Assembly: GCF_963666255.1 (NCBI RefSeq)
Contig: NZ_OY762656.1
Location: 1,054,001 to 1,118,000, forward strand
Direction: 5' to 3'
Origin: an uncultured Propionivibrio sp.
GTDB lineage: Bacteria > Pseudomonadota > Gammaproteobacteria > Burkholderiales > Rhodocyclaceae
Length of the DNA stretch: 64,000 nucleotides
This document shows, piece after piece, positions 24,765 to 30,381 of this stretch. The notes beneath the pieces were generated by a model, which was not told the DNA's origin, ran no database searches, and saw only the letters and a program-made list of their open reading frames with translations. The stretch's first letter is position 1. Every line of letters begins with the position of its first letter. Position numbers and translations under genes: made by a program.

Positions 24765-25496
24765 TCAGTCGGCCCACAGTCCCAGCGCAGCAAGTTGCCG
24801 GGTGGCGGCTTCGGCCCAGCCGCGGTTGGCGGCGGGGCTGGCCGGACTCGGGTGGAGTACCTTGCCGATCTTGCGCGGCTCACCTTTCAATGCCTCCAGG
24901 GCTCGGGCTTCGGCGAAGGCGCCGATGCCAATGACCCATTCGGGTTGCAGGATCGCCACGATCTGCCGCAGATGTTCGTCGCAGGCGGCGTAGAGCGGTG
25001 CGCTTTCGGCGGTCGGCAGCTTGTCCGGGGTGAGATTGCGACCTTGGTCGAAGAAGGCGAGCGGACAGTAGTTGGCGACGAAATGCTCGGCAAAGAACTG
25101 TTCAGCGGTGCCGAAACGTTGCTGGAACAGCGCCCACAGCCGCCGTCCGCTCACTTCCGAACGGGTGCAGGCGAAGCCCTCGATCGGGCGTTTTGGGTTT
25201 TCGACGACGGGCTTGTCGACCTGAGCCTCAATTCCCATCCAGTCGCGCGCCGCGGCGATTTCGCCGAATGGGATGCCGCACTGGACCATTCCGAACGGCC
25301 CCGGATTCATGCCGACGAAGATCACCTTCTTGCGACCGCCGCCGAAACGGCGCAGATAGATCTCGTGCGGCGCCCAGGCGTAGTCGAGCGGGTTGTACAG
25401 GTGCGAGACCGGCGGCGCGAAGGACAGGGCGTTGACGGCGGTTGAAAGCGCACGGGCGGCGGTGATCAGGCGTTCTGAGGTGTCGTTGGGTTCCAT
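24765..25496 (-). CDS. SMUG1-type uracil-DNA glycosylase (family 3 UDG)
   Basis: SMUG1 removes uracil and oxidised pyrimidines from DNA. The 243-residue product carries the family motifs: VGMNPGPFGMVQCGIPFGE (motif 1, with the GMNPG loop) and HPSPASPAANRGW (motif 2). NYCPLAFFD and YAWAPHEIYL are also typical. The ATG complements 25494-25496 (MEPNDTSERL) and lies 31 bases inside the end of the upstream MFS gene. A longer frame upstream is spurious. Bacterial SMUG1 homologues are known but uncommon compared with Ung. xth, a likely downstream repair enzyme, lies nearby. Confidence 0.9.
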   Translation of the reverse strand: MEPNDTSERLITAARALSTAVNALSFAPPVSHLYNPLDYAWAPHEIYLRRFGGGRKKVIFVGMNPGPFGMVQCGIPFGEIAAARDWMGIEAQVDKPVVENPKRPIEGFACTRSEVSGRRLWALFQQRFGTAEQFFAEHFVANYCPLAFFDQGRNLTPDKLPTAESAPLYAACDEHLRQIVAILQPEWVIGIGAFAEARALEALKGEPRKIGKVLHPSPASPAANRGWAEAATRQLAALGLWAD

Positions 25497-26725
25497 GGCG
25501 CGATCTTGAAGAGGAGGAGCATGCCGGGAATGGCGAGCAGGAAGCAGAGACCGAAGAAATGGACCCAGCCCAGTTGTTCGACGAGCCAGCCGGCCGACGC
25601 GTTGACGACGGTGCGCGGCACCGCGGCGAGGCTGGTGAACAGGGCGAACTGGGTGGCCGTGTAGGCTGGGTGCGTCGTGCGGGCGATGTAGGCGACGAAG
25701 GCGGCGGTGCCGAGTCCGACGCCGAAGGCTTCGACGCCGATGACGAGGGCCAGCGCCAGGAGGCGTTCGGGCGTCGCCGGCGCGCTGCCGGCGCCTGCCA
25801 GCCAGGCGAAACCGAGAATGGCCAGCATTTGCACGGCGCCGAACAGCCAGAGCGAGCGGTTGATGCCCAGACGCACCATCCACAGACCGCCGAGCAGACC
25901 GCCGATGACCGAGGGCCACAGGCCGGCGTTCTTCGCCACCAGTCCGATTTCGGTCTTGGTGTAGCCCATCTCGAGATAGAACGGCGTTGCCAGCGCGGTG
26001 CAGAGCGAGTCGCCAAGCTTGTAGAGGAAGATGAAACCGAGCACCAGCAGGGCGCTCTTGAGACCCGAGCGGTGCAGGAATTCGCGGAAGGGCTCGGTTA
26101 CCGCCGCCGCCAGCGTGCGGGGTGCCGGTGCGCGACCCGGTTCGGAGACGCGCAGCGTCATGAGGAGTCCCGGCAGCATGAAGAGGCCGGTGATGGCGAA
26201 TACTTCGAACCAGGGCAGGCGGTCGGCAAGCCAGAGCGACAGCGAACCGGGGATCAGCCCGGCGACCTTGTAGGCGTTGACGTGAATGGCGTTGCCGAGT
26301 CCCAGCTCCTGGTCGTCGAGCAACTCGCGCCGGAAGGCGTCGAGGGCGATGTCGAGCGTTGCCGACAGCACGGCGATGAGCGTGGCGACGGCCGCGATGC
26401 TGGAAAGCGACTGGCTCGGCGACAAGGTACCGAGCCAGCAGATGGCGCCGACCAACGTCAGATGGGTTGCCGCCATCCAGCTGCGGCGCCGTCCGAGCCA
26501 GGGCAGCGCATAACGGTCCATCAGCGGCGCCCAGAGGAATTTCCAGGTGTAGGGAAACTGGATCAGCGCAAAGAGGCCGATTTCGCGCAGGCTGATGCCT
26601 TCTGTTTTCAGCCAGGCCGGCAGCAGGTTAAGCAGCAGGAACAGCGGTAGGCCCGAACTGAACCCGGTGAAGATGCAGATCAGCATCTTCCGGTCGAGGA
26701 GGATACGCAGACTGCCGGTCCCCAC
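25466..26725 (-). CDS. AmpG-like MFS transporter (muropeptide permease family)
   Basis: This 419-residue major facilitator protein has about twelve membrane spans. AmpG-type features include the N-terminal GFSSGLPLFLLLNLLPAWL, PYTWKFLWAPLMDRY and GRRRSWM. AmpG imports GlcNAc-anhydromuramyl peptides for cell-wall recycling. The start is GTG (complement of 26723-26725), sharing one base with the metW stop. Placement after metXW is unexpected for cell-wall recycling and may only reflect operon packing. The substrate could differ from that of E. coli AmpG. Confidence 0.85.
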   Translation of the reverse strand: MGTGSLRILLDRKMLICIFTGFSSGLPLFLLLNLLPAWLKTEGISLREIGLFALIQFPYTWKFLWAPLMDRYALPWLGRRRSWMAATHLTLVGAICWLGTLSPSQSLSSIAAVATLIAVLSATLDIALDAFRRELLDDQELGLGNAIHVNAYKVAGLIPGSLSLWLADRLPWFEVFAITGLFMLPGLLMTLRVSEPGRAPAPRTLAAAVTEPFREFLHRSGLKSALLVLGFIFLYKLGDSLCTALATPFYLEMGYTKTEIGLVAKNAGLWPSVIGGLLGGLWMVRLGINRSLWLFGAVQMLAILGFAWLAGAGSAPATPERLLALALVIGVEAFGVGLGTAAFVAYIARTTHPAYTATQFALFTSLAAVPRTVVNASAGWLVEQLGWVHFFGLCFLLAIPGMLLLFKIAPWNPTTPQNA

Positions 26726-27339
26726 TATTTTCGGCCCAGGCGGTAGAAGGCGAGGCTGCCGTCGAGGTTCGGGTCCTCAGTCACGAGTTGGCCGGCGTCG
26801 TTGAAGGCGCGTCGTTCGAGGATGGCGATGCCGAGCTTGTCGCACAACGCTTCGAAATCGGCGATGGTGAAGAAGCGCACGTTCGGCGTTTCATACCATT
26901 CGTAGGGCAGATCCTCGGAAACCGGGACGTGGCCGTTGGCGATTGCCTCGCGGTTCGTGCGGTAGGCGAAATTGGGAAAGCTGACGACCGCTTCGCGGGC
27001 GACGCGCAGCATTTCCGTGAGGATGCGCTCGGTCGCCAGCATCGCCTGCAGCGCCTGCGAGATGACGACGTAATCGAACGACTGGTCTTCGAAGCCGGAC
27101 AGCCCGTGGTCGATGTTCATCTGGATGACGTCGACGTTGTTGCGGATGCAACCGAGAACACTGTCATGGTCGATTTCGACGCCGTAGCCGCTGATGTCCT
27201 TGTGTTCGCGCAGGTAGCGCAGCAAGGAGCCGTCCCCGCAGCCAAGGTCGAGCACGCGGCTGTTGGCGGGTATCCAGTCGGCGATGACGGCGAAGTCGAA
27301 GCGGTCGCGCTCCTGTTTGGTCAGTTTGCGTAGGTTCAT
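26725..27339 (-). CDS. metW: methionine biosynthesis protein MetW
   Basis: MetW is a class I methyltransferase-fold protein found beside MetX in proteobacteria and needed for efficient homoserine acylation. The 204-residue product shows the SAM-fold glycine motif [15 protein letters not shown], the acidic VEIDHD, and the family segment [12 protein letters not shown]. It overlaps the metX stop by 4 bases and shares metX's riboswitch-controlled transcript. Confidence 0.95.
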
Positions 27340-28463
27340 ACCGCGATGTTCTCCAGATAGGCCCGCAGCACGGCGTGATAATGGGCGTCGTCGAGCAGGA
27401 AGGAATCGTGCCCGGCGTCGCAGTCGATTTCGGCGTAGGCGACGCGTCGGCGGTTCTTCAGCAGCGCGAAAACGATTTCGCGCGAGCGGGCCGGCGAGAA
27501 GCGCCAGTCGGTCGAGAAGCTGGCGATGAAAAACTCGGCTTTCGCCCGCGCCAGCGCGGCGGCGAGGTCGCCGTCGTAAGCGTAGGCCGGGTCGAAGTAG
27601 TCGAGCGCCTTGGTCGTCATCAGGTAGGTGTTGGCGTCGAAAAATCCGGCGAACTTGTCGCCCTGATAGCGCAGGTAGGATTCAACTTCAAAGTCGACGT
27701 CATAGCTGAAACGGTGTTCGTCATGACGCAAGCGGCGACCGAATTTCTCGTCCATCTGGTCGTCCGACAGGTAGGTGATGTGCCCGATCATGCGCGCCAG
27801 ACGCAGACCGCGTTTGGGTACGACACCATGCTCGGCATAGTGGCCGCCGTGGAAATCGGGATCGGACAGGATCGCCTGGCGGGCGACTTCGTTGAAGGCG
27901 ATGTTCTGGGCCGACAGCTTCGGCGCCGAGGCAATGGCGACGACATGACGGATGCGGTCGGGAAACTGCAGCGACCATTCGAGCGCCTGCATGCCGCCGA
28001 GGCTGCCGCCGAGTACCGCCGCCCAGGTGTCGATGCCGAGCGCGTCGGCCAGCCGGGCCTGCGCGGCCACCCAGTCTTCGACGGTGACGAGCGGGAAGTC
28101 GGCGCCATAGCGCTTGCCGGTCCCGGGATTGATCGATAACGGCCCGGTCGATCCGTAGCAGCCGCCGAGGTTATTCACGCCGATGACGAAAAACTTGCGC
28201 GTATCGAGCGGTTTGCCGGGGCCGACGAGGTTATCCCACCAGCCAAGATTATTCGGGTTGTCGGCGTAGGTGCCGGCGACGTGATGGCTGCCCGAGAGCG
28301 CATGACAGACAAGTACGGCATTCGAGCGCGTCGCGTTGAGCGTGCCGTAGGTTTCGTAAACGAGTTCGAAACCGGGCAGCTCGGCGCCGCTTTTCAAGGT
28401 CAGCGGTGCCTCGGAACGGAAGCGCTGTGGGGTGACGATTCCGACAGAATTTTCAGAGGTCAT
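27336..28463 (-). CDS. metX: homoserine O-acyltransferase MetX
   Basis: MetX acylates homoserine in the first committed step of methionine synthesis. It is an alpha/beta hydrolase-fold enzyme of 375 residues. The nucleophile elbow is [12 protein letters not shown], the oxyanion region is [14 protein letters not shown], and the catalytic His is in [12 protein letters not shown] start at ATG 28463 ([15 protein letters not shown]). A TTG 18 bases upstream lies in the terminator U-tract and is rejected. Annotated MetX proteins of proteobacteria can use acetyl- or succinyl-CoA; I cannot tell which from sequence reading. Expression is predicted to be shut off by SAM through the upstream SAM-II aptamer. 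Confidence 0.95.
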
Positions 28464-28480
28464 TTCAGTCTGTTCGCACA

Positions 28481-28517
28481 AAAAACAAAACCCAGTCGGC
28501 TAACAAGCGGACTGGGT
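28481..28517 (-). terminator. riboswitch-controlled intrinsic terminator before metX
   Basis: Read on the minus strand, CCCAGTC and GACTGGG form a 7-base-pair stem, with an inner GCT/AGC extension, followed at once by TTTTGTTTTTT. This is a standard intrinsic terminator lying between the SAM-II aptamer and the metX ATG. Its 3' half contains TTAGCCG, the exact complement of CGGCTAA in the aptamer, giving an alternative antiterminator pairing. Confidence 0.88.
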
Positions 28518-28521
28518 GCGA

Positions 28522-28575
28522 GCCGCTTTAGCCGGATTTATTGAGCGCCCGCAAGCTGATCTTCAAATCGGCGCT
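28522..28575 (-). promoter_or_regulatory. SAM-II (SAM-alpha) riboswitch aptamer
   Basis: On the minus strand the leader matches the SAM-II consensus. Stem P1 is AGCGCC (28575-28570) with GGCGCT (28549-28544). The loop begins with the conserved GATTTG and contains CTTGC. After P1 come CAATAAATC and the highly conserved GGCTAAAG. Known SAM-II RNAs have the same order of GAUUU, UUGC, P1 3' strand, and GCUAAA. It precedes metX, the classic SAM-II target. Here it is linked to a downstream terminator, so control is probably at transcription rather than only at translation. Confidence 0.88.
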
Positions 28576-28583
28576 ATGGAAGG

Positions 28584-28612
28584 AAGTTACCGCTGTGATT
28601 GAGAAATGTCAA
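28584..28612 (-). promoter_or_regulatory. promoter of the metX leader
   Basis: On the minus strand a consensus -35, TTGACA (complement of 28607-28612), is separated by exactly 17 bases from TAACTT (complement of 28584-28589), a moderate -10. Transcription would start near 28577, almost at the first base of the SAM-II aptamer, which is what such a short leader requires. Confidence 0.72.
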
Positions 28613-28622
28613 ATCACAGCGG
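28590..28622 (-). repeat. inverted repeat at the ptsI end, overlapping the metX promoter
   Basis: CCGCTGTGATT (28590-28600) and AATCACAGCGG (28612-28622) form a perfect 11-base inverted repeat with an 11-base spacer, 7 bases past the ptsI stop. It may be the ptsI transcript terminator (no long U-tract follows). It also covers the metX -35 and spacer, so it could be an operator. The sequence does not decide between these. Confidence 0.6.
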
Positions 28623-28629
28623 CAGGGCT

Positions 28630-30381
28630 TTAAAGCTGCCAGGCGTTGAGTCGCTCGATCTGTTCCTGAATCTTGGCCGACTCTTCGAGCTTCAGGATGC
28701 GGCGGACGATCGGGGTGATCTCGGAGATGTCGCTCTGCTTGATCTTCTGCTTCACTTCCGGAATCTGCGCCGGGAACATCGAGAACTGGCGCAGGCCGAG
28801 GCCGAGCAGCAGGCGTGTCATGTGCGGATCGCCAGCGAGTTCGCCGCACATCGACACCGGTATGCCGGCCTTCTCGCCACTGCTGATGACATGCGAGAGG
28901 AGCATCAGTACCGCCGGGTGAAGCGGGTCGTACAGGCTGGCAACCTGCTCGTCGCTACGATCGATGGCCAGCGTGTACTGGATCAGGTCGTTCGTGCCGA
29001 TCGAAAGAAAATTGAGTCGACGCAGGAAGAGCCCGACGGCGAGGGCGGCTGCCGGTACTTCGATCATGCCGCCGATCTCGATGTTCTCGTCGAACGGAAC
29101 GCGTTCGCCGCGCAGGCTCGACTTCGCCTGCTCCAGCATCGCCAGCGTCTGGTCGATCTGGTGCGCATGCGAGAGCATCGGGATGAGGATTCTGATCTTG
29201 CCGTACCTTGAGGCGCGCAGGATGGCGCGCAACTGGGCGAGGAAGGGCTTGGGTTCGGCCAGCGACAGCCGGATCGAACGCAAGCCGAGCGCCGGATTGT
29301 CGCGCTTGCGGTCGGACGACGAGAGTTCGGTATGCAGGTTTTTGTCATTGCCGAGATCGAAGGTACGGATGGTGACCGGACGCCCCTCCATGCCTTTGAC
29401 GACCTTGCGGTAGGCTTCGAACTGCTCCTCCTCGCCGGGCATGTCGCCGCGACCAAGGAAGATGAACTCGGTCCGGAACAAGCCGATGCCTTCGGCGCCG
29501 CTCTCAAGTGCCAAAGCGACTTCGGCCGGCTCCTCGATGTTGGCGAGCAGGTCGATCTTCGTCTTGTCGAGCGTGGTCGCACGCGCGGTCTTGAGCAGCT
29601 TGAGCTTGGCGCGCTCGATTTCGATCTGACTCTTCTTGAGTTGATATTCCTCAAGAATTCGCGGGTCGGGATTGACGATGACGACGCCGCGCGTGCCATC
29701 GACGATCAGTTGTTCCTTGTCGCGAATCAGCTGCCGGGCGTTATGCAGGCCGAGTACCGCCGGAATGCCCATGCCGCGCGAGAGAATCGCGGTATGCGAG
29801 GTGGCGCCACCGACGTCGGTGATGAACGAGGCGAAATTCTGGTCCTTGAAGGCCATGACGTCGGCCGGCGACAGGTCGTGGGCGACGACGATCAGGTTTT
29901 CGCCCTTGACGCCCTTGCCGAACCGCGAGTGCGCATGGTCGGGGTGTCCGGTCAGTTCGCGCACGACCCGTTCGACCACTTGCCGGACGTCATAACTGCG
30001 TTCGCGCAGATAGGTGTCGTCAATGGCTTCGAACTGCCCGACCAGGTGTTCCATCTGCTGGACGATCGCCCACTCGGCGTTGCAGCGGCGTTCGCGGATG
30101 ATGTCCTTGGGAATCTCCGATAGCTCGGGGTCCGACAGGATCATCAGGTGCAAGTTGACGAAGGCACCGATGTCGGTAAGGGCGTGACCCGTATTGGCCT
30201 TCAGGGCCTGGAATTCGTTGCGGACGGCTTCGACGGCCGTTTCGAAACGTGCGATTTCCTTGTCCACCATGCGTGGTGGAATCAGCAGGTGCGAGACTTC
30301 GAGCGTCGCCTGCGAAATAAGGTGCGCCCGGCCGATGGCGATGCCGCCGGATACCGGCAATCCGTGCAGGGTGAAACTCAT
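28630..30381 (-). CDS. ptsI: phosphoenolpyruvate-protein phosphotransferase (PTS enzyme I)
   Basis: Enzyme I takes phosphate from PEP and passes it to HPr. The 583-residue protein shows the phosphohistidine segment GGATSHTAILSRGMGIPAV and the C-terminal PEP-binding motifs GLFRTEFIFLGR, LSIGTNDLIQYTLAIDRS and VSMCGELAGD. I start at ATG 30381 (MSFTLHGLPVSGG), behind GGGGAG; a frame eight codons longer enters ptsH. It follows ptsH by 7 bases. With no membrane EIIBC in the window, the chain is probably regulatory. Confidence 0.96.
   Translation of the reverse strand: MSFTLHGLPVSGGIAIGRAHLISQATLEVSHLLIPPRMVDKEIARFETAVEAVRNEFQALKANTGHALTDIGAFVNLHLMILSDPELSEIPKDIIRERRCNAEWAIVQQMEHLVGQFEAIDDTYLRERSYDVRQVVERVVRELTGHPDHAHSRFGKGVKGENLIVVAHDLSPADVMAFKDQNFASFITDVGGATSHTAILSRGMGIPAVLGLHNARQLIRDKEQLIVDGTRGVVIVNPDPRILEEYQLKKSQIEIERAKLKLLKTARATTLDKTKIDLLANIEEPAEVALALESGAEGIGLFRTEFIFLGRGDMPGEEEQFEAYRKVVKGMEGRPVTIRTFDLGNDKNLHTELSSSDRKRDNPALGLRSIRLSLAEPKPFLAQLRAILRASRYGKIRILIPMLSHAHQIDQTLAMLEQAKSSLRGERVPFDENIEIGGMIEVPAAALAVGLFLRRLNFLSIGTNDLIQYTLAIDRSDEQVASLYDPLHPAVLMLLSHVISSGEKAGIPVSMCGELAGDPHMTRLLLGLGLRQFSMFPAQIPEVKQKIKQSDISEITPIVRRILKLEESAKIQEQIERLNAWQL

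Follow-up and report, generated by a model that had tools for sequence, protein, structure and literature searches.

The leader of metX in the window (the whole 64,000-nucleotide stretch of DNA that was analysed) is a real regulator of a known class, SAM-II, and is predicted to bind SAM. Its sequence, its folding and its comparison with related leaders indicate that it probably represses metX-metW by early transcription termination. A promoter, the SAM-II aptamer, an intrinsic terminator and the ATG of metX (28463-28461) all lie within positions 28612-28461 of the minus strand (Table 1), and the aptamer pieces picked out by the earlier note (P1, GATTTGA, CTTGC and GGCTAAAG), the hairpin with its U tract and the start codon were all found on that strand. 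The metX profile was run on the open reading frame extended to 28481, and the ATG at 28463 was picked from the start of the profile. Among the 80 named loci listed, the MetX protein nearest to that of the window is from Candidatus Accumulibacter sp. 66-26 (87% over 347 residues).

Table 1. Features of the metX locus, in positions of the window
Feature	Position	Strand	Basis or remark
-35 box TTGACA	28607..28612	-	read from the sequence; position conserved in relatives
-10 box TAACTT	28584..28589	-	17 bases past the -35 box
P1 5' strand AGCGCC	28570..28575	-	sequence and RF00521 alignment; P1 covariation in relatives
P1 3' strand GGCGCT	28544..28549	-	sequence and RF00521 alignment
CAGCUUGC, P2 5' segment, part of the SAM-II core	28551..28558	-	complement enriched in terminators of relatives
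CGGCUAAAGCGG, conserved GCUAAAG, P2 3' strand, antiterminator strand	28523..28534	-	RF00521, alignment, folding and comparison
CCGCUUGUUAGCCG, terminator loop and inner stem	28497..28510	-	complementary to 28534-28523 (12 pairs, 2-base bulge)
Intrinsic terminator	28480..28517	-	hairpin ACCCAGTC...GACTGGGT (28517-28490) and U tract TTTTGTTTTTT (28490-28480)
metX, homoserine O-succinyltransferase type	27336..28463	-	NF047916.1, 672 bits, cut-off 560
metW	26725..27339	-	TIGR02081.1 above cut-off; 4-base overlap with metX
AmpG-family transporter gene, close behind metW	25466..26725	-	TIGR00901.2 above cut-off
Uracil-DNA-glycosylase-superfamily gene, start uncertain	24765..25490	-	PF03167, E 1.8e-9

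The metX transcript would start near 28577, at the foot of P1. The -10 box matches the consensus at three of six positions, and TTGAC stands at the place of the -35 box in 182 of 237 related leaders as against 4 of 707 control places downstream; the metH leader of this genome is outside the clear TTGAC cases and has promoter-like boxes further upstream. A simple scan for promoters and terminators listed neither the metX promoter nor the leader hairpin; the loop of the terminator's outer stem has 12 bases, and the loop limit of the scan is 8. The stability of the 120-base leader as a whole is not unusual (z -0.79). Between ptsI and metX, an 11-base inverted repeat (CCGCTGTGATT/AATCACAGCGG, 28590-28622) overlaps the -35 box and the spacer; by eye, the repeat at this place is a different one in the same-genus relative L085, and in another such relative, L140, none is evident.

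The assignment to SAM-II made in the earlier note is borne out by a significant full-length match to RF00521 (28584-28507, minus strand, model positions 1-79; 31.4 bits, E 1.7e-5 for 321 bases against 4227 Rfam families, genome-wide E 5.0e-5), although its score is below the curated cut-off of 36, and Rfam at gathering score gave no match anywhere in the window. Two matches in this genome are convincing, the one before metX and one of 34.7 bits before metH (G000:C2:1136195-1136272, equal to L001:1501-1578, minus), which is likewise followed by a terminator; the next has an E of 0.77, and the own-genome matches L003-L008 (E above 0.7) were left out. The SAM-II core elements GAUUUG, CUUGC and GCUAAAG are present, and they are invariant or nearly so in 32 aligned aptamers. 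All P1 cells are paired in the 31 distinct rows of that alignment, with two of the six pairs changed on both sides, and the pairing holds in 1359 of 1428 cells across 238 leaders. The letters of P2, whose register we take to be that of the SAM-II crystal structure, are compatible with pairing; they hardly vary, and covariation therefore cannot test this helix. SAM-V (RF01826) gave no match at its cut-off in the window, nor any up to E 10 in 28400-28720, and the other sub-threshold Rfam matches (mir-2944, Six3os1_3 and mir-460) were judged to be due to chance.

As the earlier note had proposed, an antiterminator can form between the conserved 3' strand of the aptamer and the terminator region, and both folding and comparison support this. 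CGGCUAA (28534-28528) pairs with UUAGCCG (28503-28497), both where that note had placed them. It had also put the second element in the 3' arm of the terminator, which is correct for the last G, in the outer 3' arm; the rest belongs to the loop and the inner stem. The seven-base complementarity it described is present and in fact longer: AGCGG (28527-28523) pairs in addition with CCGCU (28510-28506), giving 12 pairs around a 2-base bulge. Computed without pseudoknot P2 and without SAM, the antiterminator alone has a folding energy of -16.1 kcal/mol as against -18.0 for the terminator, and P1 is compatible with both. In the growing RNA the antiterminator is part of the lowest-energy fold for 3' ends 28499-28493 (at 28494, -28.4 kcal/mol as against -22.9 with the terminator). 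From 3' end 28492 onward the terminator is favoured, and once finished it is 4.2 kcal/mol ahead, so read-through would depend on timing. Of 5000 dinucleotide-shuffled terminators, 22 gave a duplex with the aptamer 3' segment as good as that of the real terminator; of 279 unrelated ones taken from the fetched loci, 2 did.

To see how widely this leader occurs we relied on RF00521 and on a lineage model, R1, built from the alignment of the 32 aptamers (A1); since these include the aptamer of the window, the R1 score of that aptamer is circular. RF00521 matches at E<=0.01 were found in 184 of 399 genomes of the order and in none of 14 control genomes, and matches above the curated cut-off in 69 of the 399. 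R1 matches were found in 300 of the 399, and in 111 of the 121 genomes of the family. A motif search with a P1 filter picked out 238 leaders with a SAM-II-type core from the fetched loci. Most of these belong to the top-scoring matches in the lists, so that their frequencies are not unbiased; nine fetched loci lacking the motif (L035, L172, L190, L192, L195-L197, L225, L250) and 25 elements of a second, tandem-like type were left out. Compared with checked reference proteins, the gene within 1.5 kb downstream was most similar to metX in 101 leaders, to metZ in 67 (distant PLP enzymes may be counted here), to metH in 32 and to metK in 5; in the other 33 it was like none of the four. A terminator was found within 170 bases in 211 of the 238 (metX 83/101, metZ 65/67, metH 32/32, metK 5/5, other 26/33), and several of the 27 leaders without one look like misses of the terminator finder. 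In seven leaders with no terminator found (L025, L031, L259, L260, L262, L264 and L265) the GAGG of P2 stands directly before the ATG; judging by sequence, these represent a ribosome-site version that exists in the same order as the terminator version.

Some relatives carry tandem leaders, in which a SAM-II element with a terminator is followed by a second, SAM-II/SAM-V-like element (GATTTAA...AACTTGC...GCTAAA). Ten of 12 second elements found by one motif have a SAM-II within 330 bases upstream; second elements were seen in L204, L205, L222, L254, L275, L341, L353, L047, L016 and L011, and by eye in L290, L307, L316, L330 and L357. Tandem SAM-II leaders are known from Pelagibacter, and those seen here are from beta- and gamma-proteobacteria, including Halomonas and Dechloromonas records. 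Behind several of them (L204, L205, L222, L254, L275, L266, L268) lies a gene for a small protein of ~95-114 residues that starts M[FY]DC, for which no Pfam family was found (three sequences; two of the three in another search) and, for one, no NCBIfam family.

The fit between terminator and aptamer was compared across the related leaders. Repeated hairpins were removed (211 to 202, and one more, to 201, for the nascent-fold test). Exact 6-base complements shared by each of the 202 distinct terminator hairpins and its own aptamer were then tallied along the aptamer, with dinucleotide shuffles as the reference. Complements were enriched 7- to 28-fold for the aptamer windows CTTCAG to CTTGCG (4- to 6-fold just before these, with 4 cases each) and 6- to 19-fold for the windows ACGGCT to GCTAAA. 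Enrichment was below 2 at all other aptamer positions, and below 1 at most positions of the P1 3' strand. In nascent RNAs folded without the outer 3' arm, pairing of the 3' segment with the terminator reached 7 bases or more in 68.7% of 201 leaders as against 25.9% with shuffled terminators; the corresponding values for the 5' segment were 7.0% and 6.5%. Exchanging the base before GCUAAA between leaders weakened the mean pairing from -12.04 to -11.30 kcal/mol, and none of 5000 permutations was as good; with whole segments swapped within gene and family groups, none of 3000 was as good for either segment. Because the leaders are related and mostly top-scoring, these permutation numbers are not clean probabilities. 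Unrelated terminators, which are weaker hairpins (-15.7 vs -18.3 kcal/mol), paired less well with the 3' segment (-8.92 vs -12.04).

Taken by group, the 3' segment swaps as good as the natural combination numbered, of 3000, 0 for metX and 3 for metZ of the family, and 68 for metX and 7 for metZ of other families. The 3' segment is favoured in metX and metZ of both sets, in metK and in the nine metH leaders from outside the family. For the 5' segment the preference is strongest in metX of other families and is also seen in metZ of the family. In the family's 20 metH leaders, which include the group of this genome's metH leader, neither P2 segment is favoured (2917 of 3000 swaps as good for the 3' segment, so no fit), and their switch may work differently. 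Two further tests were less telling. In the whole-hairpin duplex test just 38 of 211 leaders reached significance; duplex energies taken over the whole aptamer discriminate poorly, probably because any terminator arm can pair with the GC-rich P1 strand. Single-base tables gave a weak signal (28/46 paired, with 49 of 5000 permutations as high; Watson-Crick 67/185, with 268 of 5000). Taken together, terminators of related leaders match the two P2 segments of their own aptamers more closely than terminators that are shuffled, swapped or unrelated, the family's metH leaders being the exception.

Comparison thus supports a terminator/antiterminator mechanism, and we infer that termination itself depends on SAM. 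With SAM bound, P2 would hold GCUAAAG, the antiterminator would be blocked and the terminator would end transcription at about 98 nt. In the absence of SAM, P1 may remain closed while P2 opens and GCUAAAG becomes free; the free 3' strand would catch the terminator loop strand as soon as it leaves the polymerase, when the 3' arm does not yet exist, and the polymerase would clear the U tract before the hairpin can win. In a metX SAM-II RNA described in a review, P1 is protected with and without SAM, and P2 and L1 are exposed without it (PMC10907184).

The alternative that survives best, and that we still consider unlikely, is that the aptamer binds SAM while the terminator is constitutive, limiting metX and making a short riboswitch RNA, with SAM acting through promoter activity or RNA stability. 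The finished terminator is indeed the more stable form, the family's metH leaders have no fitted antiterminator, and the terminator behind the riboswitch of Sinorhizobium meliloti metA was not predicted to be SAM-dependent (PMC9373788); against this, terminator regions in the metX and metZ groups match their own aptamers, exactly at the P2 segments. It is very unlikely that the leader belongs to a separate RNA class that resembles SAM-II and senses something else (e.g. SAH), metXZ then not being SAM-II: the core segments are nearly invariant, 69 genomes hold matches above the RF00521 cut-off and the targets are methionine and SAM genes, even if P2 differs from the alpha-proteobacterial consensus and Leyn et al. 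(2014) took metXZ as new, with Rfam SAM_alpha only in Rhizobiales and Rhodobacterales (PMC4239095). Translation control would mean that SAM masks the ribosome site, as in the SAM-II switches that have been studied best, with the hairpin being incidental. It fits the review's classing of SAM-II as a direct-occlusion, translational switch (PMC10907184) and the seven leaders with GAGG before the ATG, but is hardly credible here, where 60 bases containing a U-tract terminator separate the end of the aptamer from the ATG.

The comparison also bears on an RNA element that stayed unexplained in 2014, for which it may offer an answer. Leyn et al. (2014) reported metXZ in 35 of 40 beta-proteobacterial genomes (sums of their table), placed before metXW or, in Methylophilales, Nitrosospira and Thiobacillus, before metZ, and described terminators, a pseudoknot in which regions 1-4 and 2-6 pair and, as a speculation, an antiterminator (PMC4239095). 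The leaders described here share with metXZ the place before metXW or metZ, the four-region pseudoknot, the terminator behind it and the idea of an antiterminator; unlike here, Leyn et al. did not recognise metXZ as SAM-II, and the comparison is one of descriptions. In agreement with their text, metZ lies downstream in our Nitrosospira, Nitrosovibrio and Novimethylophilus records (L279, L287, L336, L349, L354), and in family f31 a SAM-II leader precedes metX in four of four genomes. Since place, targets and topology agree, beta-proteobacterial metXZ is very probably SAM-II, on strong circumstantial evidence. The literature found on metXZ and riboswitches consisted of Leyn et al. (2014), and no paper stating the link between metXZ and SAM-II was found, as far as the available text goes.

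A second Rfam entry appears to be involved as well. RF02424 (Bp2_287, 'Burkholderia sRNA') matches below its cut-off on the strand opposite SAM-II leaders in five of eight loci, and weakly in the window; nine further matches were, by eye, all opposite a SAM-II match. At E<=0.01 it is found in 118 of 399 genomes of the order, three of them above its cut-off, and the control genome of E. coli has a weak match as well. At the three loci above cut-off (L396:1501-1673, L397:1501-1677, L398:1501-1703) the opposite strand carries a SAM-II aptamer detected by R1 (in L398 no more than the first half of it scores), metZ lies downstream of the aptamer, and the RF02424 start AAAAAGCCCGC is the complement of the end of the riboswitch terminator. 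RF02424 is thus most likely the SAM-II leader of metZ read backwards, a genuine antisense RNA being the less probable reading. The genomes of these three loci (family f31) carry a second SAM-II leader, before metX. In three metX leaders of f31 (L411, L414, L415) no U-tract hairpin was seen by eye, and UUUAGCCGCC (or UCUAGCCGCC) could pair either with GCGGCUAAA in the aptamer or with the GGCGG that immediately precedes the ATG; the f31 metX leaders could follow the same strand logic with a translational output.

We lean slightly towards a broader reading, in which beta-proteobacterial SAM-II works by strand exchange. Both P2 strands, which form the SAM pocket, would have complements in the terminator hairpin, and the antiterminator would be made of the ligand-binding bases themselves. 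The strand used would differ by lineage: the 3' strand in metX, metZ and metK of the set, the 5' strand in other families' metX and apparently, by eye, the P1 5' strand in three f31 metZ leaders. Such a scheme would unite SAM-II, the orphan metXZ and the misoriented RF02424.

The earlier note held that SAM-II switches are best known for hiding a ribosome site and that a terminator version was therefore worth testing. Such a version is not unusual: SAM-II with terminators had been reported or predicted by Corbino et al. (2005; PMC1273637) and by Barrick and Breaker (2007; PMC2258182), in a class most common in alpha-, beta- and gamma-proteobacteria (PMC2704228). Scheuer et al. (2022) predicted SAM-dependent termination for S. 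meliloti metZ, with a ~100 nt RNA more abundant in rich medium, and state that the way SAM-II affects gene expression had previously gone unstudied (PMC9373788). A paper on spermidine (PMC10853860) was discarded as a SAM-II precedent, as it concerns SAM-I variants. SAM-II with a terminator being already known, what is added here is a testable template, the link to metXZ and corrections to Rfam. With its ~100 bases and its predicted antiterminator, this leader offers a small template on which transcriptional control by SAM-II could be tested, and the related leaders point to the bases worth changing. Most members in the order are missed by the Rfam cut-off, as the difference between the genomes above it and those with R1 matches shows.

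One of the closest known systems is the metZ SAM-II of S. meliloti (PMC9373788), with which the leader in the window shares the aptamer core, a terminator directly behind it, a methionine gene as target and the expected OFF logic with a short terminated RNA. It differs in its target, metX-metW, in its beta-proteobacterial P2 (CAGC with GCG) and in scoring below the Rfam cut-off. In the known two-aptamer arrangement, as described in the source, a SAM-II is followed by a predicted hairpin and poly-U, as here; the window has no second aptamer, whereas some relatives have pairs. SAM-I (S-box) attenuators repress by a terminator and an antiterminator, the latter using a strand of P1. The OFF logic proposed here would be the same, with a different aptamer and with the ligand-pocket strand of P2 as the antiterminator.
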